Source: Embleya scabrispora DSM 41855 (GTDB taxonomy: Bacteria > Actinomycetota > Actinomycetes > Streptomycetales > Streptomycetaceae). From it: a stretch of 44,768 nt of DNA. A program made the translations under genes and the position numbers. Numbering within the stretch: the first letter of the stretch is position 1; the number at the start of each line of letters is the position of its first letter. Positions 1,437 to 33,715 of this stretch are shown here, piece by piece. The notes below the pieces were generated by a model, which saw only the letters and a program-made list of their open reading frames with translations, was not told where the DNA came from and did no database searches. The DNA lies in contig NZ_KB889681.1 in NCBI RefSeq assembly GCF_000372745.1, forward strand, positions 1 through 44,768. Direction: 5' to 3'.

Positions 1437-1976
1437 ATGAGCGGCGACCAGCTGTCATTGCGGCCGGTGGCGGAAGCGGACATATCCGTTCTCGAACGGT
1501 TCCTGATCGATCCCGAGGCGGTCGGACCGTTCGCCTGGTACGGCTGGTCGGATCCGGGCGGTTGGCGTCGCCAATGGGCGGAGAACGGCCTGATCGGCGA
1601 CGACCGGGGGCTGTTGCTGGTGGTCCGCGGCAGCGAGGTGCCGGGCTTCGTGGCCTGGCGCAAGATCGCCACCTCGCGCACCGCGTACTGCTGGAACGTC
1701 GGGATCAACCTGTTTCCCGAGGCGCGCGGCCAAGGGATCGGCACCCGGGCCCAACTCCTGCTGGTGCGCTACCTGTTCGCACACACCCAGGTGGCCCGGA
1801 TCGAGGCCGGTACCGAGCTGGACAACCTCGCCGAACAACGCGCCCTGGAAAAGGTCGGCTTCACCCGCGAGGGCGTGGCACGTGCCTACACCTTCCGCGA
1901 CGGTCGGTGGCGCGACGTGGTGTTCTACAGCATGCTGCGCGACGAGCTCGCACCGGCGACCGAGGAATTCGTGTAA
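1437..1976 (+). CDS. GNAT family N-acetyltransferase
   Basis: Predicted cytosolic acetyl-CoA-dependent N-acetyltransferase of the RimJ/RimL-like branch. The 179 residues cover the whole GNAT fold: an N-terminal LRPVAEADI strand-helix, the pyrophosphate-binding loop RGQGIGT at residues 97-103, and the late motif with ALEKVGFTREGVARAY typical of RimJ/RimL proteins. The ATG has GGAG seven bases upstream. The acceptor could be a protein N-terminus, an antibiotic or a small amine; nothing nearby decides this. Family assignment is firm, substrate unknown. Confidence 0.92.
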   Translation: MSGDQLSLRPVAEADISVLERFLIDPEAVGPFAWYGWSDPGGWRRQWAENGLIGDDRGLLLVVRGSEVPGFVAWRKIATSRTAYCWNVGINLFPEARGQGIGTRAQLLLVRYLFAHTQVARIEAGTELDNLAEQRALEKVGFTREGVARAYTFRDGRWRDVVFYSMLRDELAPATEEFV

Positions 1977-2289
1977 CGCGGCTCGCGCGCCGCCCGTCTA
2001 CCCGCCGGCCCCGGCCCGCGCTTGGTGGGATGGCACCGAAAGCGCGGTCGTCCTTGGTCCGTGCCCACGAAGTCCACCGCGTTCGCGCCCGGCTAGCGTC
2101 GGGGCTGCGCCGCGAAACACTTCGACACCACCGACGAGCGCCGACATCCTCCCTTGCGGTCACCCCGCGCCACGGGAGGGTCGGTTTCGGCGTCGATCGG
2201 AGACTCGCCGCCCCGGCTCTCGCCGGGCGTTCCCGGTACCGGACGACCGGGGCGGCGACCGGGACGGGCCGACCAGGATGGAGCAAGCC
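1977..2289. other. 313-bp gap before the fusion hydrolase
   Basis: No gene with a credible ribosome binding site was found here. The open frames that cross it continue out of the acetyltransferase region or lie in the reverse complement and have no family resemblance. The fusion hydrolase promoter presumably lies here, but no clear -35/-10 pair stands out. Confidence 0.4.
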
Positions 2290-5200: not shown

Positions 5201-5661
5201 CCATCGGACAGTACGCGTTCCTCCGGGTTCTGCCCGAACAGGGCCTGGCGGTGGCGCTGTTGACCAACGGCGGAGACGCACCGGAGCTGTACGAGGACCT
5301 GTTCCGGGAGATCTTCGCCGAGGTCGCGCAGGTCGCGCTGCCCGCCCCGTTCGCGCCGCCCGCGCAACCTCCGGCCGTCGACCCGGAGCGCTACGTCGGC
5401 GTGTACGAACGCGCCATGCAGCGCTTCGAGGTGCGGGTCGGCGCCGAGGGCGAGGGCTTGGTGCTGCGGATCGAACTGACCGGGGAAATAGCGGAAAGCC
5501 TGCCGGACGCGGTGCGGGAATTGCCGCTGGTCGCGGTCGCCGAGGACGTGTTCGCGATGCGGGAGCCCGGATCGGTGATCTGGCGCCCGGTGAGCTTCGG
5601 AACCTTCGAGGGGGGCGGACGCTACCTGTTCAGCGGCCAGGTCACCCCGCGGGTGAACTGA
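2290..5661 (+). CDS. S9 family peptidase fused to a beta-lactamase/PBP-like serine hydrolase
   Basis: One uninterrupted 1,123-residue protein with two serine hydrolase modules. Residues 1 to about 390 form a WD40/PD40-like propeller with repeats such as WSPDGTRVAF. Residues about 400-655 are an S9 (acylaminoacyl-peptidase-like) alpha/beta hydrolase with nucleophile Ser515 in GYSYGGY, Asp596 and His628. After a linker of roughly 20 residues comes a class C beta-lactamase/D-aminopeptidase-like domain with SxxK (Ser727-Lys730), YxN (Tyr819-Asn821) and HxG (His967-Gly969), then a C-terminal beta domain (about 1025-1123) as in esterase-type members. All catalytic residues of both modules are present. 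No signal peptide was seen, so it is likely cytosolic. The ATG at 2290 is chosen for GGAG six bases upstream; an in-frame ATG four codons earlier is less well placed. Substrate unknown; oligopeptides are likely for the S9 part. Confidence 0.93.
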   Translation: MTRRLRLDDLNAITVPTEPAVSPDGTRVVYTLVGVDAAKDRNVRSLWWVPTSGGEPQRLTEGPSDSTAVWSPDGTRVAFLRAVDGPPQLWVLPIEGGDARQVTRLPMGAGRALWSPDGTRLAFGAVIDTYATADEDESARAARAKAPLVIDRVDYQVDGAGMLGSLRRHVHVVDVASGEVTRVTEGAWHASDPAWSPDGTRLAYAAGPDADADLTMRSAAYVVDLATPAAPAERVGSADGMAGWVDWTPDGRSLLVLGAEYTSAAHNRVLRVPLAGGSTVDLTGALDRNVMPGGSGYPGGLPQPTSDGRELLFCLREAGNTHLYALDLESGDARLVVGDTGRSVSGLSVSRSSGAVAIVLTTTTSYGEIAVIDPADGTERVLTGHGTQALPDVELFTPIDRRFTTSDGTVVHGRLLRDPQVTGPTPLLLDIHGGPHNAWTGTADSVHLYHQELAARGWTILTLNPRASDGYGEDFYAATVGNWGTMDAPDFLEPLDELVAEGIADAQRLAVTGYSYGGYMTCYLTSRDQRFAAAVAGGVVSDLNSLAGTSDMGSYMGWAEFGGTPWDDVDLYARSNPFTKVGDVRTPTLLLQGAADVRCPLGQAQQWFGALRERDVPARMVLYPDGSHLFILDGPPSHRLDWNRRIVDWVEQYAGSAGRTRPAPLDAAHWQRRLSTLAERHRIPGATLGILRLDEHASDDLVEAAYGVLNLNTGVPVTTDSVFQIGSISKVWTTTLVMQLVEDGLLDLDQPLSEVLPELRLSDPELAKQITMRHLLTHTSGIEGDRFIDTGRGDDCLAKYVATLEDAAQVFPPGGAWSYCNSGFNLAGRVIEHLTGKTWDQVLRERLSGPLGLERTITLPEEALLLRAAVGHVSQDGGDPQVAPVWMLPRSAGPAGLIGSTSAELLRFARLHLADGATADGSRLLGAEHALAMREKHVDMPDLAAMDASWGLGWHRYAWDGHEVVGHDGGTIGQYAFLRVLPEQGLAVALLTNGGDAPELYEDLFREIFAEVAQVALPAPFAPPAQPPAVDPERYVGVYERAMQRFEVRVGAEGEGLVLRIELTGEIAESLPDAVRELPLVAVAEDVFAMREPGSVIWRPVSFGTFEGGGRYLFSGQVTPRVN

Positions 5662-11557: not shown

Positions 11558-11664
11558 GCGCGTGGCGTCGCGCGGCGGATAATCCGGTATGGACTGATTC
11601 GGGGCAACATGGGGCGCGCGACGCGATCGGCGTACCGTACCCGGCGCGGTGAGGGAGCATGGCG

Positions 11665-13014
11665 ATGGATGAGCTGACCACGCGGGTCGACGGCATGCTC
11701 GACAGCCTCTGCGAGGACCTGCGGCGGCTCACCCGGATCCCCTCGATCGCGTTTCCCGGCTATCCGCCCGAGCCGGTGCGGCAGGCCCACGACCTGCTGG
11801 TCGAGCTGTTGCGCGAGGCCGGTGTGCGGGACGTCGCCGCACTGCGGCTGCCGGACACCGCGCCGGTGATCACCGGCCACATCCCACCGCCGCACCCGGA
11901 TGCGCCGACCGTGCTGCTGTACGGGCACTACGACGTACAGCCCGCCGGCGACGAGTCGTTGTGGTCGACGCGGCCGTTCGAGCCGACCGATGTCGACGGT
12001 GCGATCCACGGACGTGGGACGGCCGACGACAAGTCGAACCTGATCGTGCACCTGGGCGCGCTGCGTGCCTTCGACGGGCGGCCCCCGGTGGGGATCCGGA
12101 TCGTATTCGAGGGACAGGAGGAGTACGGCAGCGAGTTCGACGACTACCCGCAGGAGCATCCTGACGAGTTCGCGTGCGACGCGATGGTGATCGCCGACAT
12201 GGGCAACATCCGCCCGGGTACCGGCACGCTGACGGTGGCGCTGCGCGGGGTGGTCGAGGTGATCGTCGAGGTGCACACCCTCGAAGAGGCCAAGCACAGC
12301 GGCAACTTCGGCGGCGCGGCACCCGACGCGCTGTTGGTCCTGCTGCACGCCCTGGCCGCGCTGCACGACGCGAACGGTGACGTGGCCGTGCCGGGTCTGC
12401 GCCGCGAGCAGTGGTCGGGCGGCGGCTGGAACGAGGAGGAGTTCCGCCGGCTGGCCGGGATCCGCGAGGGCATGCCGCTGATCGGTACCGGAAATCTGGG
12501 CTCGCGCCTGTGGTCGGGGCCGGCGATCACGGTCACCGGCCTGGACGCGCCCTCGGTCGAACGGGCCGCGTCCGCCGTGGTGCCGGCCGCCCGCGCGAAG
12601 CTGAACATGCGCTGCCACCCGGCCCAGGACCCGGTGCAGGCGCAGCGTCTGCTGATCGAATTCCTGGTCGGGCTACGGCCGTTCGGGGTGCCACTGCGAG
12701 TGACCCAGGCCGGCGCTCCGGGGTCGGGGTTCGCGGCGGCCACCGACGGGGTAGCCTATCGGGCCGCGCACGAGGCGCTGCGCACGGCGTGGGGCGCGGA
12801 GCCGGTACACGCGGCCGCGGGCGGATCGATTCCCTTGGTCAACAGCCTGGTGGCGGCGCAACCGAACGCGGAGATCCTGCTGTTTGGGGCGCAGGACAGC
12901 ATGTGCAACCTGCATGGGCCCAACGAGCGGGTGTTGGTGAGCGAACTGCGCGACGCGGTGGTGGCGGAGGCCGTGTTCTTCGCGGCGTACGCGGACCGTT
13001 TCGGGGGCGATTAG
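11665..13014 (+). CDS. M20 family dipeptidase
   Basis: A 449-residue cytosolic zinc dipeptidase of the M20 family (CNDP/PepV-like). Metal-binding and catalytic motifs are in place: GHYDVQP (His88, Asp90), GTADDK (bridging Asp in 121-122), EGQEEYGS (Glu152 general base, Glu153), and a C-terminal PNERV segment. The dimerisation domain occupies roughly 200-320. The start is set at the second ATG (11665) because AGGGAG lies about seven bases before it; the ATG at 11659 is too close to that site. It is followed by a YfcC-type transporter on the same strand, which suggests a peptide or amino-acid use pair. Confidence 0.9.
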   Translation: MDELTTRVDGMLDSLCEDLRRLTRIPSIAFPGYPPEPVRQAHDLLVELLREAGVRDVAALRLPDTAPVITGHIPPPHPDAPTVLLYGHYDVQPAGDESLWSTRPFEPTDVDGAIHGRGTADDKSNLIVHLGALRAFDGRPPVGIRIVFEGQEEYGSEFDDYPQEHPDEFACDAMVIADMGNIRPGTGTLTVALRGVVEVIVEVHTLEEAKHSGNFGGAAPDALLVLLHALAALHDANGDVAVPGLRREQWSGGGWNEEEFRRLAGIREGMPLIGTGNLGSRLWSGPAITVTGLDAPSVERAASAVVPAARAKLNMRCHPAQDPVQAQRLLIEFLVGLRPFGVPLRVTQAGAPGSGFAAATDGVAYRAAHEALRTAWGAEPVHAAAGGSIPLVNSLVAAQPNAEILLFGAQDSMCNLHGPNERVLVSELRDAVVAEAVFFAAYADRFGGD

Positions 13015-13022
13015 CGCCTTCG

Positions 13023-13052
13023 GCGAACGCCGTGCCGGGCACGAGCGTTCGC
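13023..13052 (+). terminator. Hairpin between dipeptidase and transporter
   Basis: Outer arms GCGAACGC and GCGTTCGC enclose inner arms CGTGC and GCACG. It lies 9 bp after the dipeptidase stop with no T-tract; it may be a terminator or an mRNA-stabilising element between the two genes. Confidence 0.4.
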
Positions 13053-13157
13053 TGCGGGATCGACGGGCGCCGCGGATGTCCGTAGACGCGGGCGGTGCGC
13101 GATCCGGCGGCCCGCCCACCCACCCCGGATTCATCAGTCAGCCGCAAGGAGCAGCGC

Positions 13158-14696
13158 GTGAGCACCGACCAGGCGTCGACCCGGACCGAGGACGAAGCGC
13201 CGCCGCCCAAGCGCGGCTTCCGCTTTCCGAGCGCGCTGACGGTGCTGGCGATCGTGACCATCGCGGTGTGGGCCCTGACGTTCGCGATTCCGGCCGGCGA
13301 GTACCGGCTCGACGAGGACGGCAAGCCGGTCGCGGGGACCTACCACCAGACCGAGTCGCCGGAGGACTTCGTCCAGCGGCTCAACGACCTGTTCCTGTCG
13401 CCGGTCAACGGCCTGTACGGGCTCAAGGACGCGCAGAGCGGGCAGGTCGCGCCGGACAACACGGGCGATCTGTACGGCAGCGCGGCGGTGTTCCTGTTCG
13501 TGCTGGCCATCGGGGCGTTCATCACCGTGGTGTTCGCCACCGGCGCGCTGGACCGCGGCATCGCCCGCCTCGCGCATCGGTTGCGAACGCGTGGGGCGGT
13601 GCTGATCGTGGCGATCATGACCGTGTTCGCCATCCTTGGCTCGGTCGAGGGTTTCGCCGAGGAGACGCTCGGGTTCTACGGCCTGGTCGTGCCGTTGATG
13701 CTGGCGCTGGGCTACGACCGGATGGTGGCCACCGGCACCATCATCCTGGGCGCGGGTGTGGGGGTGTTGTGCTCGACGGTCAACCCGTTCGCGACCGGTG
13801 TCGCCTCCTCGGCGGCGGACATCTCGTTGGGTGACGGCATCGTGTTGCGGTTGCTGATGCTGATCGTATTGACCACGGTGACCATCCTGTATGTGGTGCG
13901 GTATGCCCATCGGGTCAAGGCCGATCCGTCCCGTTCGCTGGTGGGTTTCCTGCCGGGGGACCGCGAAAAGGCGGAAGCGGCGGCCACCGGCGGCGAGCCG
14001 CCGCCGTTGACGCGCATCCATCGGATCGTGTTGGTCGTGGTGACCATCACCTTCGTGTTCATGATCTTCGCGATCATTCCGTGGGCCCAGGTGCTCAGCG
14101 GTGACGCCGACGCCGATCCGTACGACTGGGAACTGGGCTGGTCATTCCCCGAGTTGGCGGCGATGTTCATCCTGGCGGCGGTGATCGTCGGGGTATTGGC
14201 CCGGCTGGGGGAGAAGAAGCTCGCGGAGACGATCATTCAGGGCGCGGCCGACTTCATCTCGCCGGCGCTGATCATCATGCTGGCCCGCGGGGTCACCGTC
14301 ATCATGAACAACACCCAGGTCACCGACACGGTCCTGCACTCGATGGAGGGCGCGGTCTCGGACGCCTCCTCGGCGCTGTTCGGCATCCTGATCTTCGTGG
14401 TGAACCTGCCCTTGGCCTTCCTGATCCCCTCGACCTCGGGGCATGCGACGCTGGCCATGCCGATTCTGGCGCCACTGGCCGACTTCGCCGACGTGCCACG
14501 CTCGTTGGTGGTGACCGCGTGGCAGTCGGCGTCCGGGTGGATGAACCTGTGGGTGCCGACGACGGCGGTCATCATGGGCGGCGTGTCCCTGGCCAAGGTC
14601 GGCTACAACCAGTACCTCCGCTTCGCGGCACCCCTGCTGGCCATCCTGTTCGTTCTGATCTGCGCCTTCGTCGCGCTGGGCTCGGGCTTGTCCTGA
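13158..14696 (+). CDS. YfcC family transporter (DcuC/AbgT-like superfamily)
   Basis: A 512-residue inner-membrane protein with about 12 hydrophobic helices and the family hallmarks SVEGFAEETLGFYGL near the first half and PSTSGHATLAMPILAPLADF in the second half. YfcC proteins belong to the ion-transporter superfamily; members have been linked to dicarboxylate, amino-acid or peptide transport, but the substrate here is unknown. The GTG start has AAGGAG seven bases upstream. It lies 143 bp downstream of the M20 dipeptidase, and similar transporters often sit beside M20 peptidases, so a dipeptide or amino-acid substrate is a reasonable guess. The periplasmic loop after helix 1 contains GEYRLDEDGKPVAGTYHQ. 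Confidence 0.87.
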   Translation: MSTDQASTRTEDEAPPPKRGFRFPSALTVLAIVTIAVWALTFAIPAGEYRLDEDGKPVAGTYHQTESPEDFVQRLNDLFLSPVNGLYGLKDAQSGQVAPDNTGDLYGSAAVFLFVLAIGAFITVVFATGALDRGIARLAHRLRTRGAVLIVAIMTVFAILGSVEGFAEETLGFYGLVVPLMLALGYDRMVATGTIILGAGVGVLCSTVNPFATGVASSAADISLGDGIVLRLLMLIVLTTVTILYVVRYAHRVKADPSRSLVGFLPGDREKAEAAATGGEPPPLTRIHRIVLVVVTITFVFMIFAIIPWAQVLSGDADADPYDWELGWSFPELAAMFILAAVIVGVLARLGEKKLAETIIQGAADFISPALIIMLARGVTVIMNNTQVTDTVLHSMEGAVSDASSALFGILIFVVNLPLAFLIPSTSGHATLAMPILAPLADFADVPRSLVVTAWQSASGWMNLWVPTTAVIMGGVSLAKVGYNQYLRFAAPLLAILFVLICAFVALGSGLS

Positions 14697-23563: not shown

Positions 23564-25264
23564 TCAGATCTGGCAGGCGATCTCGTCCGCGGCCCGCTCG
23601 CCGGAGGCCACCGCCGCGTTCAGAGTGGAGTTGTCCACGTCGGTGTGCTCGCCCGCGAAGTGGATCCTGCCCTCCTGGACGCCCTCGTAGCCGGCGATCG
23701 AGGTGTACTGGCCGACCCGGTAGTAGTGATAGGCGCCCAGCGACCAGGGGTCGAGCGACCAATGGTCCTCGTACGCCTTGCCGTTGTATGCCGCCGTGGT
23801 GCCCGGGAACAGATGCTCGATCTGTCCGTGGAACCATTGCACGTCGGCGGCCGGTGCCGGGCCGTGCGCCGCTCCGGTGAGGGTATTCCGGGCGACGTTG
23901 CCGCCGGGGAAGTTCACCAACAGGGCCGGCGCGCCGTTCTCGCCCAGATGCACCGAACCGTCCCAGGCGGTCTGATAGCCGTTGGGGCCGGTGTTGCTGA
24001 TGCCGTTGCCGCCGACCGCGGGCCAGGTCTTGCGGGTGAGCTGGGTGACGATCTTCGCGTTCTGCCCCATGCCCTGCTCGCGGATCGCCTTGAGCTTGAG
24101 CGCGGACAGGCTCGCACCGGACAGGTCGACGTCGCGCAGCGTGCTGAACGGCAGCGCCAGCACCACATGGTCGGCGGTGACCGAGACCGTGCTGCCGGCG
24201 TGGTCGAACGTACAGGTGTAGCTGCCGGTGGCGTTCTGCCGCAGTGCGACCAGTCGATGGCCCGGTTTGACGGCGCCGGTCGGGAGTTCCGCGACCATGC
24301 CGCTGACCAACTGGTCGTTCCCGCCGACGAGATGATACTTCTCGTCGAAGCCGCCGCCGCCGAAGACCTCGGAAGAGCCGAGGAAGCCGATCAGGCCCAT
24401 CGCCGAACAGTCGCCCGGCTCGCCGCCCGATTGCAGTTGCAGCGACTGGATCAGTTGGCCGAGCCGGGAGCTCGCCGGCAGCCCGATCTCCGCGAGGTAG
24501 TCCAGGGCGGACATCCGGTCGAGCCGACGCGCCTCGGCGGTGGAGTTGTTGTAGCGGGGTGTCCCCGCGGCGGCATAGGAGGCGCTGAACGCGCTGTAGG
24601 CGTGCGCGACCCAGTCGTCCTGCTGGACGGCGCCGTCGTACCCGGCGCCGTCGATCCACGCCTTGTAGTCCCCGGTGGCCAGCGCGCCGCCGGCGGCGAC
24701 CTCCTTGTTCAGTCCCAGTCGGCGGGAGAGGGCCAGGATCGCGGTATCGGTCGAGCTGATGAACGCCCCGCCGTGCTCGTGCACTTGACCGCCGGCGAAG
24801 TAGCCGCGCAGGGATCGACAGCGGCCGCCCAGGTGAGTGTCGGCGGCCTCGTACACGGTCGCGGCGACGGGGGTACGGCCCGTCCAGAGCCGGTGTGCAC
24901 AGCGCAGTCCGGCCAGACCCGCGCCGACCACGACGATGCGCGGTGCGCCGCTCGACGTGGCCGCCGAGGCGCGTGACGGTGCGAGCAGCCCACCCGGCAG
25001 TGCGGCGGCGGCGACGGCGAACGCGCCCGCGCCGCCGAGGAGTCGGCGTCGGCTGGGGCCGGCCGCGGCCTCGCGTTCCTCGGCGCGACGGGCCCGTTCG
25101 AGCCGGACCGCCTCGGCCTGCTCGCCGGCCACCTCGGCCACGGGCAAACCGCGTCGACGAGCCTCGGCGTGGGTGGCGAAGACGGCGCGCAGCGGTGCGG
25201 GCAGCCCGGCGCGGTCGACGGTTCGTGCGGGAGAGGTACGTGGGCCGGAAGGTTCCTTGGGCAT
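23564..25264 (-). CDS. Tat-exported flavin amine oxidase
   Basis: A 566-residue FAD enzyme of the monoamine oxidase family, oxidising an amine to an aldehyde or imine with release of H2O2. FAD-binding motif VVVGAGLAG (Gly114, Gly116, Gly119), GGRCRS after it, and the C-terminal FAGEHT flavin motif. Twin-arginine signal SRRRLLGG at 71-78 followed by an Ala/Leu-rich segment; the 70-residue charged region before it is unusually long for a Tat signal. ATG start with GAGGG about six bases upstream. A promoter with a TetR-type operator at 25399-25445 points at it, so it likely shares control with the amidohydrolase/ABC operon across the TetR gene. The substrate amine is unknown. Confidence 0.9.
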   Translation of the reverse strand: MPKEPSGPRTSPARTVDRAGLPAPLRAVFATHAEARRRGLPVAEVAGEQAEAVRLERARRAEEREAAAGPSRRRLLGGAGAFAVAAAALPGGLLAPSRASAATSSGAPRIVVVGAGLAGLRCAHRLWTGRTPVAATVYEAADTHLGGRCRSLRGYFAGGQVHEHGGAFISSTDTAILALSRRLGLNKEVAAGGALATGDYKAWIDGAGYDGAVQQDDWVAHAYSAFSASYAAAGTPRYNNSTAEARRLDRMSALDYLAEIGLPASSRLGQLIQSLQLQSGGEPGDCSAMGLIGFLGSSEVFGGGGFDEKYHLVGGNDQLVSGMVAELPTGAVKPGHRLVALRQNATGSYTCTFDHAGSTVSVTADHVVLALPFSTLRDVDLSGASLSALKLKAIREQGMGQNAKIVTQLTRKTWPAVGGNGISNTGPNGYQTAWDGSVHLGENGAPALLVNFPGGNVARNTLTGAAHGPAPAADVQWFHGQIEHLFPGTTAAYNGKAYEDHWSLDPWSLGAYHYYRVGQYTSIAGYEGVQEGRIHFAGEHTDVDNSTLNAAVASGERAADEIACQI

Positions 25265-25398: not shown

Positions 25399-25445
25399 AG
25401 TGAAGCGCCTGCGCATCACTGATGTCAACAGTGTTGCGCAGGCGC
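25399..25445 (-). promoter_or_regulatory. Promoter and TetR-type operator S1 for the amine oxidase
   Basis: An imperfect inverted repeat spans 25405-25445 with perfect outer arms GCGCCTGCGCA and TGCGCAGGCGC. Its core (25411-25439) matches operator S2 at 26242-26270 in 26 of 29 positions. On the minus strand it contains TTGACA (25428-25423), then 18 bp, then TTCACT (25404-25399), oriented toward the amine oxidase 135 bp away. Binding would cover the -35 box. Confidence 0.75.
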
Positions 25446-25511
25446 TGTGCGAAAAAGACCTTCGTTTATTGCCAGGGTGAGTCGGACCGGCCCGCTTGTG
25501 CGGCCGGGGTG

Positions 25512-26207
25512 TCAGCTCTTCCGGATCGCGGCCGCGCGTTGCTCGATCGCGGTGATCAGCGCCTCCACCCGGGTGTGGAAGATCTGGTCGTGCGAGACCT
25601 CGGCCAACTCGGCACCCAGCCGGGTGATGTGCGGGAATCCTCCCCTGTCCACCAGTCGATACTCGACCTTCCAGGCGGACTCGTCCGACGCCCGGACCTC
25701 GGGATCGAACAGCAGGTAGGCCGCGCGTTGGCCGACGTACGCCAGCAGCGAGTCGCCGACCATCCGGTAGTGCAGGGCCGCGTCGGCGCCGTCGAGGCCG
25801 GCTTCGGTGACCATTCCGAGGATGAGTTCGACGACGCGGAACTCGTTGGGGCGTCTGGTGGTCCGGCTGGCCATGGTCGAGGCGACCACCGGGTATTTCA
25901 GCGCGACGGCGAGCGAGCCGTCGGCCAGTGCGCGCAGTCGACCCCGCCAGTCGAGGCCGTCGGGGATGCTGTCCAGCACCTCGCCCAGCGTGCGGTCGGC
26001 GACGGACAGCAGCAGCTCGTCCTTGTCGCGGAAGTGCCGGTAGATCGCGGTCGGGTCGGTGCCCAGCTCCTCGCCGAGGCGGCGGATCGTGAACGCGTCC
26101 GAACTGCCCCGCGCCGCGATGCGCAGGCTCGCGTCGATGATCGCCTCGGGGGTCAGTTGGGTGCCGGTTCGCTTGCTGCGGACTGGGGTTGCGGGTGGTT
26201 TCGGCAT
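25512..26207 (-). CDS. TetR family transcriptional regulator
   Basis: A 231-residue regulator with an N-terminal TetR helix-turn-helix (about residues 20-66: AIIDASLRIAARG and FTIRRLGEELGTDPTAIYRHF) and a TetR_C-like ligand domain. It probably represses the flanking genes until a small ligand binds. The two related inverted repeats flank its gene: S1 between it and the amine oxidase, and S2 35 bp upstream of its own ATG, between it and the divergent amidohydrolase operon. This arrangement implies autoregulation and control of both neighbours (inference). Confidence 0.92.
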   Translation of the reverse strand: MPKPPATPVRSKRTGTQLTPEAIIDASLRIAARGSSDAFTIRRLGEELGTDPTAIYRHFRDKDELLLSVADRTLGEVLDSIPDGLDWRGRLRALADGSLAVALKYPVVASTMASRTTRRPNEFRVVELILGMVTEAGLDGADAALHYRMVGDSLLAYVGQRAAYLLFDPEVRASDESAWKVEYRLVDRGGFPHITRLGAELAEVSHDQIFHTRVEALITAIEQRAAAIRKS

Positions 26208-26241
26208 GGTGGGGCCAGTGTATCGATTCGACCGTCGGAAT

Positions 26242-26282
26242 GCGCATCACTGTTGACAACACTGTTGCGCTGCCGTTTCACT
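26242..26282 (+). promoter_or_regulatory. Promoter and TetR-type operator S2 for the amidohydrolase/ABC operon
   Basis: The inverted repeat at 26242-26270 (ends GCGCA and TGCGC) is 26/29 identical to S1. It holds TTGACA at 26253-26258, followed by an 18-bp spacer and TTCACT at 26277-26282, the same spacing and -10 as in the S1 promoter. The plus-strand promoter faces the amidohydrolase gene at 26436. The TetR gene starts 35 bp to the left. Confidence 0.75.
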
Positions 26283-26337
26283 CCTCACCACGGCCCACGC
26301 CCACCGCGTTCACCCGGCCGAGGTATGCACACGCGGG

Positions 26338-26392
26338 CACCGCACCGCTCCGTACACCGCACCGCTCCGTACACCGCACCGCACCGCACCGA
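26338..26392. repeat. 17-bp tandem repeat in the amidohydrolase leader
   Basis: Unit CACCGCACCGCTCCGTA is present twice exactly (26338-26354, 26355-26371), then a partial third copy that degenerates into CACCG repeats. It lies in the 5' untranslated region between the S2 promoter and the start codon. Confidence 0.8.
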
Positions 26393-26435
26393 ACAAGGCA
26401 CCGCGGAACACCGAACCGACCCAGAGGACGCGTTG

Positions 26436-28118
26436 ATGGGGACCACCCGGCCCAGGGCCGACACCGTTTTTGTAGGAGGCAGGGTCTTCACCGCGACCTC
26501 GCCCGCCCCGATCGACGCCGCGGTCGCGGTCCGGGACGGTCGGATCCTGACCGTTGCCGACGAGCACGCGGTGCGCGAACTCGTGCACGCCGACACCGAG
26601 GTGGTCGACCTCGCGGGCGGCCTGCTGATCCCCGGATTCCAGGACGCGCACGTACACCCGGCGGTCGCCGGGGTACAGATGGGACGCTGCGACCTGGCGG
26701 GCGAACGCTCCGTCGACGGCTACCTCGCGGTGATCGCCGGCTACGCCGACGCCCATCCCGACGCCGACTGGATCTGCGGCGGCGGCTGGTCCATGGACGT
26801 CTTCCCGGGCGGCATCCCCACCCGGGCCATGCTCGACGCGGTGGTGCCGGACCGACCCGTACTGCTCACCAACCGCGACGGCCACGGCGCGTGGGTCAAC
26901 AGCCTCGCGCTGACCCTGGCCGGCGTCGACCGGGACACCCCCGACCCGGCCGACGGCCGGATCGAGCGCGAGCCCGACGGCACCCCGGGCGGCATGCTCC
27001 AAGAGGGCGCCATGGACCTGGTCGGCGACCACGTACCGCCGGCCACCCCCGACGAGGCACTCGCCGGGCTGCTGGCCGCGCAGCGCCACCTGCACGGACT
27101 CGGCGTGACCGCGTGGCAGGACGCCATGATCGGCGTCTTCCCCGGCAACCCGGACAACTTCGACGTCTACCTGCGCGCCGCCGGCGACGGCTCGCTCACC
27201 GCCCGCGTGGTCGGCGCCCTGTGGTGGGACCGCGAACGCGGCCTGGAGCAGATCCCGGACATCGTCGAACGCCGGCGCACGGGTCGCGTCGGTCGCTTCG
27301 CCGCCACGACGGTGAAGATCATGCAGGACGGCATCGCGGAGAACTTCACCGCCGGGATGCTGGAGCCCTACCTGAACGGATGCGGCTGCGCCACCGCCAA
27401 CTCCGGCCTCAGCTTCGTCGATCCGAAGCTGTTGGCCGAGGCGGTCCGCGAACTGGACCGACTCGCGTTCCAGATCCACTTCCACGCGCTGGGCGACCGC
27501 GCGGTCCGCGAGGCCCTGGACGCGTTGGCCGCCGCCCGCGCGGCCAACGGGGGCAACGACAACCGGCACCACCTGGCCCACCTCCAGGTCGTGCACCCCG
27601 ACGACCTGCCGCGCTTCGCCGCCTTGGGCGCCGCCGCGAACATCCAGGCGCTCTGGGCGGCCCACGAACCGCAGATGGACGACCTGACCATCCCGTTCCT
27701 GGGACCCGAACGCGCCGCGCTGCAATACCCGTTCGGCGACCTGGCCCGAGCCGGCGCCCGGCTGGTCGCGGGCAGCGATTGGTCGGTGAGCAGCCCCGAC
27801 CCGCTGTGGGGCATCCATGTCGCGGTCAACCGGATCGTGCCGCACGACGCTCCCAACGCGCCCACCGACCGGGCTCCGCGCAAGCCGTTCCTGCCCGAAC
27901 AGGCGCTGACCCTGGCCCAGGCACTGACCGCCTACACCGCCGGCAGCGCGTGGGTGAACCACCTCGACGACGTCACCGGCACGGTCGAGGAGGGCAAGTA
28001 TGCCGACCTCGTCGTGCTGGACCGGGACCCGTTCGCGGGCGCGCCCCAGGAGATCGCCACCACCCGGGTCCGCCGCACCTACGTCGAGGGCCACCCGGTC
28101 TTCGTCGCGACCGACTGA
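26436..28118 (+). CDS. YtcJ-like metal-dependent amidohydrolase
   Basis: A 560-residue enzyme of the amidohydrolase superfamily (Amidohydro_3/YtcJ type), hydrolysing an amide, cyclic amide or related C-N bond. Metal-site motifs in order: DAHVHP (His72, His74), a central region with VKIMQDGIAENFT, QIHFHALGD, HHLAHLQVVHP and GSDWSVSSPDP; the C-terminal segment VEEGKYADLVVLDRDPF restores the small beta domain. ATG start with AGAGGA seven bases upstream. First gene of an operon with a complete ABC transporter, so the enzyme probably acts on the imported compound. Flanked on both sides by 17-bp tandem repeats; the stop codon lies in the first downstream unit. Confidence 0.9.
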   Translation: MGTTRPRADTVFVGGRVFTATSPAPIDAAVAVRDGRILTVADEHAVRELVHADTEVVDLAGGLLIPGFQDAHVHPAVAGVQMGRCDLAGERSVDGYLAVIAGYADAHPDADWICGGGWSMDVFPGGIPTRAMLDAVVPDRPVLLTNRDGHGAWVNSLALTLAGVDRDTPDPADGRIEREPDGTPGGMLQEGAMDLVGDHVPPATPDEALAGLLAAQRHLHGLGVTAWQDAMIGVFPGNPDNFDVYLRAAGDGSLTARVVGALWWDRERGLEQIPDIVERRRTGRVGRFAATTVKIMQDGIAENFTAGMLEPYLNGCGCATANSGLSFVDPKLLAEAVRELDRLAFQIHFHALGDRAVREALDALAAARAANGGNDNRHHLAHLQVVHPDDLPRFAALGAAANIQALWAAHEPQMDDLTIPFLGPERAALQYPFGDLARAGARLVAGSDWSVSSPDPLWGIHVAVNRIVPHDAPNAPTDRAPRKPFLPEQALTLAQALTAYTAGSAWVNHLDDVTGTVEEGKYADLVVLDRDPFAGAPQEIATTRVRRTYVEGHPVFVATD

Positions 28119-28200
28119 GCACCGCGACCGACTGAGCGTCGCGACCGATCGAGCACCGCGACCGATCGCGCACCGCGAACGACACCGCGACCGCTTGACC
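28107..28200. repeat. 17-bp tandem repeat after the amidohydrolase
   Basis: Four 17-bp units in a row (28107-28123, 28124-28140, 28141-28157, 28158-28174), consensus GCGACCGACTGAGCACC with a few changes, then two shortened units. The TGA of unit 1 is the amidohydrolase stop codon. Confidence 0.8.
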
Positions 28201-28280
28201 GCCGCCGCCGACCGCACGACCCATCGAGCACGGACCCCGCCCCGCCCGACCGCCACGCCCCCACCTCCCGGAGGAAGACG

Positions 28281-29936
28281 ATGCCCGCACCTCGTACCGG
28301 ACGCCCAAGACGCCTCCGCCGCATCGCCCTCGCCTGCGCCCTCGCCGCGACGTTGGCCGCGAGCGCGTGCAACGGCGGCAGCGGCAAGCCGGCCGCATCC
28401 GGCGACCACGCCTACGAGTTGACCGCCAAGACGGCGCCCGGCACGCCGATCGACTCGTTCACGTGGTCGCTGTTCGCCGAGCCCGCGTCGATCGACTACG
28501 CGTACGCCTTCGACTACCCGCCGAACCAGATCCTCGCCAACGTGTGCGAGAGCCTGCTGCGCTGGAACCCGGACCTGACCACCTCGCCCGGCCTGGCCAG
28601 TTCGTACACCAACCCGACGCCGACCTCGTGGGTCTACGAGATCCGTCCCGGCGTGCGTTTCCACGACGGCACCGCACTGACCGCGGACGACGTGGTCGCC
28701 TCGCTGCGCCGCAACCTCGATCCGGAGGTCGGCAGCTACTGGGCCTACCCGTACCGCAACGTGCAGTCGGTCGACAAGAGCGGCCCGATGCAGGTCACGG
28801 TCACCCTCAAGACGCCGGACTCCACCTTCAACAAGTACCTCGCCGCCAGCCCCGGCACGGTCGAGTCCGCGGCCACCCTGGCCAAGGCCGGCAAGGACTA
28901 CGGGAACCCGGCCAAGGGCGTCAACTGCACCGGCCCGTTCGCGTTCTCCTCCTGGACCGCCGGCCAGTCGATCGTGCTCAAGCGCTTCGACGACTACTGG
29001 AACCCCGACCTCAAGGCCAAGTCGGGACAGGTGAAGTTCGTCTTCCTGCCGGACGCCACCACCCGGGTCAACGCCTTCCAGACCGGCGAGGTGGACGGCG
29101 GCTGGATGGTCCCCGCCAACTCCTACGGGCAGTTGCGCAACACCCCGGCCGGCAAGCTCTACTTCGGCCGCAACACCACCGTCGCCGACGAGGTGGTCGG
29201 CAACCTCCAGGGCCCGCTCGGCGACGCCCGGGTCCGTCAGGCACTGCTGATGGCCATCGACCGCAAGGGCATCGTCGACGCCGGCGTGGGCGGCATCGGC
29301 CAAGTGGCGAACTCGCTGGTCACCGACGACGTCTGGGCCGGCGCCCCGGGCCCGGTCCGGGACGACCTGACCAAGGCGACGCCCGCATACCCGTACGACG
29401 TGGCCAAGGCGAAGGAACTGGCCGCCAAGGCCGGCGTCAACGGGCAGAAGATCGTGATCGCCACCAGCCCGCTGGACTCGCAGACCACGATCATCACCCA
29501 AGCCGTCGCCCAGGCCGCCACCGCGATCGGCCTGAAGCCGCAGATCGACACCATCTCGCCGGAGAAGTACTCCTCGCTGTTCACCGATCCCCAGGCGCGC
29601 AAGGGCATCGACCTGTTCCTGACCTTCTGGTACACCTCGATCACCGACCCGCTGGACATGTACGGCTCGCTGCAGACCGGCGCGTTCAGCAACTACGGCA
29701 GCTGGTCGCACCCGGAGTTCGACGCCGCGGTGAACCAGGCCCTGGGCGCCCCGGACCCCGCCGCGCAGTCCGCCGCGGCCGCGCAGGCCCAGCAGATCGC
29801 GCTGCGCGAACTGCCGTGGCTGCCGCTGTACACCTCGCCGGTGAGCGTTTTCCTCGGCAAGCGCATCACCGGCGTGCAGCCGTCCATCGCCTACCTCTAC
29901 TACCCGTGGGCCGCCGAGATCGGGGCGAAGAGTTGA
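28281..29936 (+). CDS. ABC transporter substrate-binding lipoprotein (family 5, Dpp/Opp type)
   Basis: A 551-residue extracytoplasmic solute-binding protein for peptides, nickel chelates or other family 5 solutes. Lipobox AASAC with acylated Cys30. Family landmarks: PASIDYAYAFDYPPNQILAN, YEIRPGVRFHDGTALTADDV (the SBP_bac_5 signature) and the C-terminal REL-PWLPLYTS region. GGAGG lies shortly before the ATG. Its stop codon overlaps the TTG start of the first permease gene. In this operon it would bind the substrate of the upstream amidohydrolase. Confidence 0.93.
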   Translation: MPAPRTGRPRRLRRIALACALAATLAASACNGGSGKPAASGDHAYELTAKTAPGTPIDSFTWSLFAEPASIDYAYAFDYPPNQILANVCESLLRWNPDLTTSPGLASSYTNPTPTSWVYEIRPGVRFHDGTALTADDVVASLRRNLDPEVGSYWAYPYRNVQSVDKSGPMQVTVTLKTPDSTFNKYLAASPGTVESAATLAKAGKDYGNPAKGVNCTGPFAFSSWTAGQSIVLKRFDDYWNPDLKAKSGQVKFVFLPDATTRVNAFQTGEVDGGWMVPANSYGQLRNTPAGKLYFGRNTTVADEVVGNLQGPLGDARVRQALLMAIDRKGIVDAGVGGIGQVANSLVTDDVWAGAPGPVRDDLTKATPAYPYDVAKAKELAAKAGVNGQKIVIATSPLDSQTTIITQAVAQAATAIGLKPQIDTISPEKYSSLFTDPQARKGIDLFLTFWYTSITDPLDMYGSLQTGAFSNYGSWSHPEFDAAVNQALGAPDPAAQSAAAAQAQQIALRELPWLPLYTSPVSVFLGKRITGVQPSIAYLYYPWAAEIGAKS

Positions 29937-30964
29937 CCCTCGCATCCTCGACCGAGGCAGCCGTGCCCGCCGCGACCCGCCGATCCGGCGGGCGCGGCGG
30001 GCGCGGCCCGGCGCTCGCCCTGGCCGCGCTGCGCCGCCTCGCCGGCATGGCGACGACCCTGCTGGTCACCTCCTTTCTGGTGTTCTCCTCGCTCTACCTG
30101 GCTCCCGGCGACCCGGTGAGCTTCCTGGTCAAGGGACGCAGTCCCAGCCCGCAGGAACTGGACACGATCCGCGAGCAGTACGGCTTCAACGACCCCTTCC
30201 CGGTGCGCTACTGGCACTGGCTGGAGGGCGTGTTGCAGGGCGACTTCGGCCGCTCGTACCTCTTCCACCAGGGTGTCGGCGACGTGGTCTGGTCCCGACT
30301 GCCCGCCTCGCTGCTGCTGATCGGCGTCTCGATGCTGCTGATCGCGGTGTTCGGGGTCGGCGCCGGAATCGTCGGAGCGCTGCGCCGGGGGACCTGGGCG
30401 GACTCGACCGTGCTGCTGATGGTCACCGTCGGTGCCGCGGTGCCCTCGTTCGTCGCGGCGATCCTGCTGCGCTCGGTGTTCGGCGTACAGCTGGGCTGGT
30501 TCCCGACATTCGGCAACGGCGAGGGCGCGCTGGACCGGCTGCACCACGTGGTGCTGCCGGCGATCGCCCTCTCGGTGACCTTCACCGCGCTGGTCACCCG
30601 GGTGACCCGGACCGCGATGCTCGACGAACTGCGCCGCGAGCACGTCGAGGTCGCGCTCAGTCGCGGTATCCCGCGGCGCAGCGTGATCAGGCGACACGTG
30701 TTGCGCAACGCGCTCGGGCCGATCGTGACCGTCTCGGCGCTGCTCGTCTCCGGGATGTTGGTGAGCACCGCGCTGGTGGAGACCGCGTTCGGGATGGCCG
30801 GCGTCGGCTCGCTGCTGGTGCAGGCGGTGAGCCAACAGGACTTCCAGGTGGTGCAGGCCATCGTGCTGCTCGTGGTGGCCGCGTTCGTGCTGATCAACGC
30901 ACTGGTGGACCTGCTGTATCCGCTGATCGACCCGCGGGTCGCGGCACAAGGGAGCGCCCGATGA
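29933..30964 (+). CDS. ABC transporter permease, DppB-like
   Basis: First membrane subunit of the Dpp/Opp-type importer, 343 residues, about six helices, with APGDPVSFLVKG after helix 1 and the EAA-type loop TAMLDELRREHVEVALSRGI that contacts the ATPases. The TTG at 29933 overlaps the binding-protein stop by four bases; an in-frame GTG at 29963 preceded by GAGG is an alternative start that would shorten the cytosolic N-terminus. It overlaps the next permease gene by four bases. Confidence 0.9.
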   Translation: MTLASSTEAAVPAATRRSGGRGGRGPALALAALRRLAGMATTLLVTSFLVFSSLYLAPGDPVSFLVKGRSPSPQELDTIREQYGFNDPFPVRYWHWLEGVLQGDFGRSYLFHQGVGDVVWSRLPASLLLIGVSMLLIAVFGVGAGIVGALRRGTWADSTVLLMVTVGAAVPSFVAAILLRSVFGVQLGWFPTFGNGEGALDRLHHVVLPAIALSVTFTALVTRVTRTAMLDELRREHVEVALSRGIPRRSVIRRHVLRNALGPIVTVSALLVSGMLVSTALVETAFGMAGVGSLLVQAVSQQDFQVVQAIVLLVVAAFVLINALVDLLYPLIDPRVAAQGSAR

Positions 30965-31839
30965 GCGCCGTCACGCTTGATTCCGCAGCCGCCCCGCCGC
31001 GCCGCGACCCGCTGCGCAGGCTCCGCCGGCTCGGCGGTTCGTGGCTGGTGAACACGTGCCTGGTGATCCTGGCGGTGTTCCTGGTGGTCGCCCTGGCCGC
31101 ACCGTGGCTGGCCCCGCAGGACCCTAGGTTCGGCGCGCTGTCGGAGACCTTCGCCGATCCGGGCGCCGCGCACTGGCTGGGCACCGACCAAGGCGGCCAC
31201 GACACCTTCTCGGCCCTGATCGAGGGCACCCGCACCAGCTTGTTCGGGCCGCTCGCGGTGGTCGTCTTCGCCACCGTCGCCGGCATCGCCGTGGGACTGT
31301 TCAGCGCGTGGCGCGGCGGTTGGGTCGACGCGGCCATCGGACGTGTGCTCGACATCCTGTTCGCCTTCCCGGCGCTGCTGCTGGCGATCCTCGCGGTCGC
31401 CCTGTTCGGCAAGGGCCTGACCGCGCCGGTACTGGCCATGGCCGTCGCCTACCTGCCCTACACCGCACGCCTGGTCCGCGGCCTGGCCGCCGCGGAGAAG
31501 TCCCGGCCCTACATCGCCGCCTACCGGGTCCAGGGCCACTCACCCGTGTTCGTCTCGGTCCGCGGCCTGCTGCCCAACATCACACCCACCGTGCTGGCCC
31601 AGGCCACGGTCAACTTCGGCTACGCGCTGCTCGACCTCGCGGCACTGTCCTTCCTGGGCCTGGGCGTACAACCGCCGACGCCCGACTGGGGCTCGATGAT
31701 CAACCAGGGGCAGTCGGCCGTTCTGCAGGAACGACCGCTGTCCGCGATCGTGCCGGCGCTCGCGATCGTGCTGGTGGTCGTCGCGTTCAACGTCGTCGGG
31801 GAACACCTCGCCGACCGGGTCGCGGGAAGGGACGCCTGA
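30961..31839 (+). CDS. ABC transporter permease, DppC-like
   Basis: Second membrane subunit, 292 residues, with a DppC-type N-terminal extension, about six helices, the HWLGTDQGGHDTFSALIEG segment typical of DppC/OppC and a cytosolic coupling loop (YIAAYRVQGHSPVFVSVRGL). ATGA overlap with the preceding permease gene and TGATG overlap with the following ATPase gene show one tightly coupled transcript. Confidence 0.92.
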   Translation: MSAVTLDSAAAPPRRDPLRRLRRLGGSWLVNTCLVILAVFLVVALAAPWLAPQDPRFGALSETFADPGAAHWLGTDQGGHDTFSALIEGTRTSLFGPLAVVVFATVAGIAVGLFSAWRGGWVDAAIGRVLDILFAFPALLLAILAVALFGKGLTAPVLAMAVAYLPYTARLVRGLAAAEKSRPYIAAYRVQGHSPVFVSVRGLLPNITPTVLAQATVNFGYALLDLAALSFLGLGVQPPTPDWGSMINQGQSAVLQERPLSAIVPALAIVLVVVAFNVVGEHLADRVAGRDA

Positions 31840-32840
31840 TGGCACTGCTCGACATCGACGCGCTGAGCGTCACACTCCCCGGGATGGCCCGGCCGATCCT
31901 GGACCGGATCGAACTGACCGTCGCCGCCGGCGAAACCGTGGCCCTGGTCGGCGAGTCCGGCTCCGGCAAGTCGGTCACCGCCCGCGCCGCGCTCGGCCTG
32001 TTCCCGGCCGGCGCCGACCTGGCCGGCCGGGTCCGGGTGGAGGACATCGACCTGGTCGGCGCCGACGCCGCGCGGCTGCGCGAGGTGCGGACCGGCATCG
32101 CGGCGATGATCTTCCAGGACCCCCGGGCCGGGATCAGCCCGGTGCGTCGGATCGGCGACTTCCTGACCGAGGCGCTGCGCCTGGTCGGCGGCTGGTCCCG
32201 AGCCCGGGCGGACGCCCGCGCGGCGGAACTGCTGGCCGCCGTCGGCCTGCCCGACCCGGAGCGCCACCTGCGCCAGTTCCCGCACGAGATGTCCGGCGGC
32301 ATGCTGCAACGCGTGATGATCGCCGCCGCCCTGTGCGGCGAACCCAGGCTGTTGTTGTGCGACGAGCCGACCACCGCCCTGGACGTGGCCACCCAGGCCG
32401 AGATCCTGGCCCTGCTGGGACGCCTGCGCCGCGAGCGCGACCTGGGCCTGCTGCTGATCACCCACGACATCGAACTCGCGGCCGCCTCGTGCGACCGGAT
32501 CTACGTGATGTACGCGGGACGGATCGTGGAGACGGCGACCGCGGACGAGCTGTTCGCCCGCCCCCGTCACCCCTACACCGCCGGACTGCTCGGCTCCTCC
32601 CCGCCGCAGGAAGGGCCGTTGACCCGGCTCGCCCCCATCCCGGGCGCGCCGATGAGCCTGCTGGAGTCCGCGACCGGGTGCGCGTTCGCGCCGCGCTGCC
32701 GGTTCGCCGAGCCGGGACGGTGCGATCAGGCGCCGCCCGTGCTCGAACCGCACGGCGCCGGTCGGGTCGCCTGCCATCGCGCGGACGAACTCGAGCCGCC
32801 CGTGCTCGCCCACCTCGCCCCGGACTCGGAGGACCGTTGA
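31839..32840 (+). CDS. ABC transporter ATP-binding protein, DppD-like
   Basis: Cytosolic ATPase of the importer, 333 residues. Walker A GESGSGKS at 38-45, Q-loop in MIFQDPRAG, signature MSGGM, Walker B LLLCDEP, H-loop THD. The C-terminal oligopeptide/dipeptide extension is present (GCAFAPRCRFAEPGRC), with the cysteine cluster seen in this subfamily. GGAAGGG lies before the ATG, which overlaps the permease stop. Confidence 0.93.
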   Translation: MALLDIDALSVTLPGMARPILDRIELTVAAGETVALVGESGSGKSVTARAALGLFPAGADLAGRVRVEDIDLVGADAARLREVRTGIAAMIFQDPRAGISPVRRIGDFLTEALRLVGGWSRARADARAAELLAAVGLPDPERHLRQFPHEMSGGMLQRVMIAAALCGEPRLLLCDEPTTALDVATQAEILALLGRLRRERDLGLLLITHDIELAAASCDRIYVMYAGRIVETATADELFARPRHPYTAGLLGSSPPQEGPLTRLAPIPGAPMSLLESATGCAFAPRCRFAEPGRCDQAPPVLEPHGAGRVACHRADELEPPVLAHLAPDSEDR

Positions 32841-33715
32841 CCACCGACGTCACACCCCATGACGGCACACCCCTGATCGAGGTCAGCGGCCTGCGCAAGA
32901 CCTATCGCACCGGCACCGGCGAGGTGGTCGCCGTCGAGGACCTGTCCTTCTCGCTGCCGGTCGGTGGCGCGCTGGGCCTGGTCGGCGAGTCCGGCTCGGG
33001 CAAGACCACCACGGCCCGGATGCTGCTCGGCCTGGAACGCCCCGACGCGGGCCGGATCATGGTGCGCGGTACGCCCCTGGCCGAGACCGTGCGCGGTCGG
33101 GCCGCCCGGTTGGCCCGGGCCAAGGCGGTCCAGATGGTCTTCCAGGATCCCTACCTGTCCCTGGACGGCCGGCTGTCCATCGGCGCGACGCTCGACGGCG
33201 TACTGCGACTGCACGGTGTGCGCGATCCGGCCGCCCGCAGCGCGCGGATCGGCGAACTGCTGGCCCAGGTCGGCCTCGGTCCCCGGGAGGCGGCGACCCG
33301 ACCGCGCGGACTCTCCGGCGGCCAGCGCCAACGCGCGGCCATCGCCCGGGCACTGGCGGTGGAGCCCGCGCTGCTGGTCCTGGACGAGGCGGTGTCGGCG
33401 CTGGACGTCTCGGTCCAGGCGCAGGTGCTCAATCTGCTCGCCGACATCCGCCGGGACACCGGCATCGGGCTGATCTTCGTCAGCCACGACCTGGCCGTGG
33501 TCCGCTACCTGTGCGACGAGGCGCTCGTGCTGCACCGGGGCCGCACCGTGGAGCACCGACCCGTCGGCGACCTGCTCACCGCGCCCGCCGACCCCTACAC
33601 CCGACTGCTGCTCGCCTCGATCCCGCGCCCCGGCTGGGACCCGGAGCACATCGCCCGACAACGCCGCGAACTGCCCGCGCCGGCAGCCGCGGGTGGTGTG
33701 GTCCCGAGCGAGTGA
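32837..33715 (+). CDS. ABC transporter ATP-binding protein, DppF-like
   Basis: Second ATPase, 292 residues. Walker A GESGSGKT, signature LSGGQRQRAAIARAL, Walker B LLVLDEA, H-loop SHD. It lacks the C-terminal cysteine cluster of its partner; DppF-like subunits vary here. The TTG start overlaps the DppD stop by four bases and has GGAGG upstream. Last gene of the operon; the stop is only 12 bp from the convergent corA stop, with no obvious terminator between them. Confidence 0.92.
   Translation: MTTDVTPHDGTPLIEVSGLRKTYRTGTGEVVAVEDLSFSLPVGGALGLVGESGSGKTTTARMLLGLERPDAGRIMVRGTPLAETVRGRAARLARAKAVQMVFQDPYLSLDGRLSIGATLDGVLRLHGVRDPAARSARIGELLAQVGLGPREAATRPRGLSGGQRQRAAIARALAVEPALLVLDEAVSALDVSVQAQVLNLLADIRRDTGIGLIFVSHDLAVVRYLCDEALVLHRGRTVEHRPVGDLLTAPADPYTRLLLASIPRPGWDPEHIARQRRELPAPAAAGGVVPSE

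Follow-up and report, generated by a model that had tools for sequence, protein, structure and literature searches.

In Embleya scabrispora DSM 41855 (assembly GCF_000372745.1), a 44,768-nt stretch of contig NZ_KB889681.1, here called the window, contains a gene for a TetR-family regulator that is flanked by two matched 29-bp near-palindromes, and these are very probably operators placed over the -35 boxes of a small TetR regulon. One of them faces a gene for a predicted exported flavin adenine dinucleotide (FAD) amine oxidase (AO), and the other faces a divergent operon for an amidohydrolase (AH) and an ATP-binding cassette (ABC) importer (Table 1). Comparative sequence evidence, namely the sites and their conservation, the co-occurrence of target genes, promoter polarity and the gene families, makes it likely that this regulon serves the uptake and breakdown of one class of nitrogen compound; we infer from it repression, induction, the compartments of the enzymes and the service of both branches to one compound. 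The shared operator had been claimed in an original prediction made from the window itself, and it is strongly supported by the conservation of the sites in relatives, by their co-occurrence with the target genes, by sites in front of AO genes located away from TetR, and by polarity.

In the window, the two repeats agree in 26 of 29 positions and each is close to a palindrome, as had been read from the letters. With their flanks they form 43-nt arms that face each other and are 84% complementary, and around operator 1, on the AO side, the arms 25404-25424 and 25426-25446 are 90% complementary. Chance pairing of the repeats was ruled out by dinucleotide shuffles of the window, none of 100 of which yielded a match within 3 mismatches; in the organism's own genome (11.4 Mb in 190 contigs, 98% complete), the inner 23 bp were found at up to 3 mismatches in these two places only. 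Each repeat overlies a TTGACA separated by 18 bp from a TTCACT, on the minus strand toward AO and on the plus strand toward AH, in agreement with the promoters originally assigned.

Relatives were collected with the TetR protein as the query against genome contigs, and the best 80 of 177 were used. A close set of 37 loci (L023-L059), from Streptomyces, Kitasatospora, Streptacidiphilus, Yinghuangia, Catenulispora and Nonomuraea, has a TetR identity of 66-86%, the next relative standing at 44%, and a looser set comprises 43 loci with TetR relatives at 36-44%; mismatches in the relatives' sites were counted against a symmetric consensus. AH adjoins TetR in all 37 close loci, and importer genes are also visible in 35 of them, the others being L042, with no match in the 10-kb flank, and L053, whose 6.3-kb contig ends just past AH. 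Operator 2 was found between TetR and AH in every one of the 37, with 0-6 mismatches. AO follows TetR in 13 of the close loci and is not at the locus in 22 of the 35 that can be judged for it (the contigs of L048 and L059 end too early). Operator 1, sought in an interval running from 40 nt short of the end of the TetR match to 260 nt beyond it, stands behind TetR in all 13 loci with a linked AO (best site with 1-5 mismatches), and a second site behind TetR was found in none of the 23 judgeable loci among the 24 without AO in view, where the best candidates have 10-14 mismatches (L059 stops within the TetR gene). Absence of the repeats from relatives that keep the genes had been named as one outcome that would speak against shared operators; in these relatives the repeats are conserved. 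In L041 (S. fildesensis), AO is a remnant matched at residues 113-246 and 511-566 only, with the middle missing, and the centre of its operator has changed, reading TTGGCA instead of TTGACA, an apparent joint decay of gene and site (L041:10758-11393); in L044, AO was matched as two pieces in different frames.

The strongest single result comes from oxidase genes that are not beside TetR. AO was sought in 20 of the 24 genomes without a linked AO in view: at E 1e-30 nothing was matched in 12, distant paralogs only were matched in 6, and unlinked orthologs in 2, both from Yinghuangia; no ortholog of at least 58% was found anywhere in the other 18 genomes. Yinghuangia seranimata (L042, genome G421) has two AO orthologs (65% and 61%) on other contigs and none beside TetR, and the only matches in its genome within 1 mismatch of the search pattern are operator 2 and the sites located about 80 and 135 bp before these two genes. 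Y. soli has two unlinked AO copies with a weaker site, at 6 mismatches, and all four unlinked Yinghuangia promoters keep TTGACA, 18 bp and TTCACT. The nine scanned neighbours of these genes have no common theme (glyoxalase, MerR, major facilitator superfamily, epimerase/hydrolase, symporter, esterase-like, DUF5954 and two without a match), and no such site lies upstream of the six distant AO paralogs (31-37%) that were checked in other genomes lacking a linked AO, two further paralogs from Yinghuangia (35-37%) lying outside the six checked. The site, as judged from these sequences, goes with the oxidase gene and not with its neighbourhood. The two Y. soli loci (L143 and L144) lie near contig ends and share the same 310 nt of upstream sequence, through either a recent duplication or an assembly repeat.

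The genome-wide scan for the operator covered 32 of the 37 genomes, those reached via the close-set loci, with a backward-pattern control alongside. Matches with at most 1 mismatch were found in 31 of them and none with the control, and, by contig coordinates, all of these matches lie at the TetR locus, except those in G421 that precede an AO, giving one to three strong sites per genome among the 31; G417, the sole genome without such a match, has a more altered site (4 mismatches). A motif-first scan of the family found matches with at most 2 mismatches in at least 95 of 394 genomes, and a few with the backward control too. The search for the motif together with its genes, proposed earlier as a check, found TetR, AH and AO sequence at all 17 loci with at most 1 mismatch among the 30 fetched from the listed motif-first matches, and at none of the 13 with 2 mismatches, so that two-mismatch matches are mostly noise. 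The 17 include the locus of the window and at least seven of the close set (L041, L031, L049, L023, L024, L032 and L045), and hence at most 9 further loci. A crude clustering of open reading frames for other conserved neighbours found, beyond the ABC genes and AO, no cluster in more than 4 of the 37 loci, clusters that were antisense or merged readings of these having been set aside with them.

The promoters within the sites are oriented in a way that matches the target genes. At the odd centre of the palindrome stands one asymmetric base, through which TTGACA reads on the same strand as the target gene in all 38 AH sites and in 13 of the 14 AO sites. The spacing between TTGACA and TTCACT is 18 bp in 11 of the 14 AO promoters and 17 bp in 2, with the pair not found in 1, and for AH it is 17 bp in 34 of 38 promoters and 18 bp in 2, with the pair not found in 2; the exact 18 bp of the original prediction is, therefore, the usual distance for AO but not for AH, where 17 bp prevails, and the pair with either spacing occurs in 13/14 and 36/38 promoters, respectively. 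Conservation is concentrated on the footprint: the 14 AO sites have 1.64 bits per position, versus 0.39 and 0.76 for the flanking 40 bp on the upstream and downstream sides, and the 38 AH sites have 1.67 bits, versus 1.00 and 1.01 (values without small-sample correction, with L023 and L024 set on the AH-proximal 29 bp of a longer array). The usual -10 pattern is TAnnnT, and a conserved TACACT on the TetR strand, just outside operator 2, is likely to be the -10 element of TetR itself, a position from which autoregulation may be deduced. In the AH leader, imperfect short direct repeats (GCACCGCACCGCTCCGTACACC) occupy 26337-26404, and this leader looks longer than that of many relatives.

Several observations weigh against the proposed regulon. 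As a -10 element, TTCACT fits the usual pattern poorly; the sites of Y. soli and one of the two in Y. seranimata have 6 mismatches to the symmetric consensus; and L119, one of the further motif-first loci and a partial exception among them, holds AO sequence whose promoter is formed by one good half followed by tandem 12-bp half-units, also with 6 mismatches. Many genomes with the core module have no AO, which is, therefore, not essential to that core. On a tree of TetR and AH (38 rows, with L048 and L059 scored as without AO), the linked AO requires 4 changes, 2 of them forced by supported branches, and a sign test cannot be significant with so few; nor does the tree discriminate between gain and loss of AO. 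Given this small number of independent linkage events, footprint, unlinked genes and polarity carry more of the argument than does the comparison of 13 with 23 loci.

Under the proposed regulation, TetR would occupy both operators over the -35 boxes when no inducer is present, keeping the AH-importer operon and AO off, and would probably also limit its own promoter beside operator 2; binding of the inducer would release all promoters together. An importer of the oligopeptide/nickel type would then take the compound into the cell, where the binuclear-metal amidohydrolase would cleave it in the cytosol, and the FAD amine oxidase, exported by twin-arginine translocation (Tat), would act outside the cell on a related amine, O2 being the probable acceptor. 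The further proposal that one ligand induces import, amide hydrolysis inside the cell and amine oxidation outside can only be called compatible with the data. A fuller scheme might tentatively be drawn, which may hold but on which we would not insist: a two-compartment pathway in which the Tat-exported AO oxidizes a soil nitrogen compound outside, a dedicated Opp-type transporter imports the product, or the parent amide, and a YtcJ-like hydrolase then cleaves it. One TetR would switch all of this through an operator built as an array of 12-bp half-palindromes, in which a single central base sets promoter direction, and this TetR would recruit the AO gene at any location to which its operator is carried along. 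Such a two-compartment actinobacterial pathway was not described in the literature found, and a search requiring five terms together returned no paper on the system.

An alternative that deserves weight, although it is somewhat doubtful, accepts that TetR controls both units and assigns them different purposes, with AO, for example, releasing hydrogen peroxide and ammonia to the exterior for attack or signalling, and the importer feeding the cell. The dispensability of AO to the core (22/35 loci without it, 18/20 genomes without an ortholog) and its movable position agree with this explanation, as does the fast reaction with O2 of most tested Tat-bearing relatives without an adjacent cytochrome gene, according to PMC12224317. 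The operator, however, accompanies AO in at least three genome positions, of which one adjoins TetR and two are unlinked, and this would agree with a substrate or product in common. It is very unlikely that TetR acts as an activator, or that the sites are bound by another regulator: TetR-family proteins usually repress from sites over the -35 box, which is the position of these sites, matches are held by 31 of the 32 genomes with this TetR, and CAACnnnGTTG units with 12-bp spacing lie before TetR in 7 of the 43 more distant loci. That operator 1 is a mere terminator of the TetR gene, with an incidental likeness to operator 2, is hardly credible, since this strong inverted repeat, 72 bp past the TetR stop, is not followed by a T run in the TetR direction, is absent after TetR in the 23 judgeable loci without AO in view, precedes unlinked AO genes with no TetR homolog in the stretch fetched, and is conserved in sequence and not in pairing alone, even though an unrelated terminator-like palindrome (10 mismatches to the operator) does follow TetR in L029.

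The operator of the proposed TetR regulon consists of two CAACAnTGTTG-like units 12 bp apart, with GCGC arms at the ends. In L023 and L024, operator 2 is lengthened to about 41 bp by a third half-unit, and in L119 a tandem series of units is present; several dimers may bind side by side. Among the 43 looser loci, seven (L060, L070, L073, L075, L082, L086 and L093) hold a CAACnnnGTTG pair with 12-bp spacing before TetR, at no more than 2 mismatches over the pair, and five of these seven have divergent AH plus importer genes. The distant TetR-AH loci L088, L092, L094 and L099 hold a different palindrome, a GTCAATGnCATTGAC variant, which suggests a sister class of regulators with shifted specificity. 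None of the 43 looser loci yielded an AO. The TetR-AH-importer core looks old and wide, recurring in more distant actinobacteria, and AO looks like an optional addition to it, seen here in Streptomycetaceae and Catenulisporaceae.

By Pfam, all the gene identities of the original prediction hold (Amino_oxidase, TetR_N plus TetR_C_1, Amidohydro_3, SBP_bac_5, two BPD_transp_1 and two ABC_tran). The two TetR domains are above their gathering scores (PF00440, 41 bits; PF02909, 33 bits), and the best NCBIfam match of the protein, MftR2, reaches 47 bits against a cut-off of 285, so that it cannot be equated with a named regulator. All the NCBIfam matches listed for the locus (for the two ATPases, those among the best 25) are under their curated cut-offs, and neither an exact function nor a ligand of the importer can, therefore, be named.

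AO belongs to the flavin amine oxidoreductase superfamily, and in an alignment of 12 sequences, from which L041 and L044 were excluded, its FAD-binding motif GAGLAGLRCA is invariant. The first 101 residues contain a twin-arginine pair, an Ala-rich stretch and A-x-A, and R72, R73, A99 and A101 are invariant in the same 12 sequences; the predicted export of the oxidase is supported by this conserved motif. The nearest solved relatives are 7khn and 5ttj (both labelled Amine oxidase, E ~1e-18), which are presumably NicA2, and ancestral L-amino acid oxidases are also matched. AO resembles the NicA2/Pnao type of Pseudomonas putida S16 in being a flavin amine oxidoreductase by sequence and in the Tat motif, but the similarity is weak (E ~1e-18) and the operon is different. 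No CxxCH was found in open stretches within 2.5 kb of AO in the window, and in open stretches of at least 60 codons within that distance it is absent from 12 of the 16 AO loci, including the window; L031, L046, L053 and L055 each have one scattered CxxCH near AO, in differing places, and no cytochrome domain was found in the 18 window proteins scanned for domains. A cytochrome c-using dehydrogenase of the NicA2 type was rejected, since the Tat motif is present but an adjacent cytochrome c gene was not found. According to PMC12224317, a 2025 study, a fast reaction with O2 is typical of the tested members that bear a Tat signal and have no cytochrome c gene beside them, most of which show it, and by that rule, because of the Tat motif and the lack of a heme motif near the gene, AO is probably an exported, O2-using oxidase. 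The structure model of AO was poor (mean pLDDT 51) and was set aside. L-amino acid oxidases bind the substrate carboxylate through an Arg (Arg90 in the snake enzyme); this identity was also rejected, since the Arg presumed to be that one appears to face Phe168, which is invariant in 12/12, in a local alignment that is itself weak (13 bits).

In AH, the residues H72, H74, K294, H350, H382 and D448 are invariant in 22/22 sequences, and we take them to be the metal ligands of the family pattern (HxH, Lys, His, His, Asp); no export signal was seen by eye. The structure model is good (pLDDT 88) and has as its best solved matches two uncharacterised Pyrococcus proteins, 3icj (24% identity) and 3igh (23%), followed by deaminases and other hydrolases, and because of these matches the amide hydrolysis originally ascribed to AH is only a family guess. 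PF07969 includes, according to PMC13081902, NfdA, a deformylase of N-substituted formamides, and newly found bile salt hydrolases that depend on metal. With these AH shares the Pfam family and the complete conserved set of His, Lys and Asp, but no closeness of AH to any one characterised enzyme emerged. The importer resembles the Opp/Dpp/Nik systems in its five-gene set of a family 5 binding protein, two permeases and two ATPases, but differs from them in that every NCBIfam match listed is under its curated cut-off; the oligo_HPY score of ATPase 2 (26.8) is also just under the gathering score of 27.1. The overlapping genes of the original prediction extend from the solute-binding protein through ATPase 2 (stop 29936 and start 29933 for permease 1, then 30964/30961, 31839/31839 and 32840/32837, with starts placed by eye), but do not include AH, which is separated from the solute-binding protein by about 160 bp.

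A TetR-controlled catabolic regulon is a known kind of system. The locus resembles those in which a TetR-family local repressor governs a divergent catabolic operon, with TetR divergent from its adjoining target, a palindromic operator over the promoter, and TetR_N plus TetR_C_1 domains, but differs in that a further matched operator is assigned to a separate flavoenzyme with predicted export and also stands before its unlinked gene copies; the present combination, with an operator that accompanies the oxidase to unlinked places, is a variant of that kind. The proposed regulon is sharply defined and links uncharacterised members of three large families, the YtcJ-like amidohydrolases, the flavin amine oxidases exported by Tat and the importers of family 5. 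Since the switch is shared, an inducer identified for a single TetR would indicate the substrate for each of the three. The oxidase gene is present, absent, decayed or elsewhere, and the operator matches in each case, providing a clean example of gene gain and loss in a regulon.

Table 1. Features of the TetR locus, in positions of the window.
Feature	Position	Strand	Evidence
FAD amine oxidase (AO) with predicted export, 566 aa; residues 71-77 form a Tat-like motif, SRRRLLG	23564..25264	-	PF01593, 128 bits; R72 R73 invariant 12/12
TTCACT, -10-like element of AO promoter	25399..25404	-	Sequence and conservation
Putative operator 1 (AO side), 29-bp near-palindrome over TTGACA (25428-25423, -)	25411..25439	.	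Repeat finding; 13/13 linked-AO relatives
TetR-family regulator, 231 aa	25512..26207	-	Pfam TetR_N and TetR_C_1; 37 close orthologs
TACACT, conserved -10-like element of TetR promoter beside operator 2	26217..26222	-	Other-strand block CAGTGTA, 32-37/38 rows per position
Putative operator 2 (AH side), 29-bp near-palindrome over TTGACA (26253-26258, +)	26242..26270	.	Repeat finding; 37/37 orthologous loci
TTCACT, -10-like element of AH promoter	26277..26282	+	Sequence and conservation
Amidohydrolase (AH; YtcJ-like, Amidohydro_3), 560 aa	26436..28118	+	PF07969, 338 bits
Solute-binding protein of family 5; signal sequence lipoprotein-like, with AASAC at its end (by eye)	28281..29936	+	PF00496, 250 bits
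ABC permease 1, putative TTG start	29933..30964	+	Pfam BPD_transp_1
ABC permease 2, ATG start	30961..31839	+	Pfam BPD_transp_1
ABC ATPase 1, OppD-like, ATG start	31839..32840	+	Pfam ABC_tran
ABC ATPase 2, OppF-like, putative TTG start	32837..33715	+	Pfam ABC_tran

Elsewhere in the window, a single 1259-aa chain encoded at 1882-5661 (+) combines a Peptidase_S9 prolyl-oligopeptidase part, which has beta-propeller repeats, with a part of the Beta-lactamase family (PF00144), and at 11659-14696 (+) an M20 peptidase is followed by a DcuC-type carrier, which looks like a separate pair for uptake and hydrolysis.

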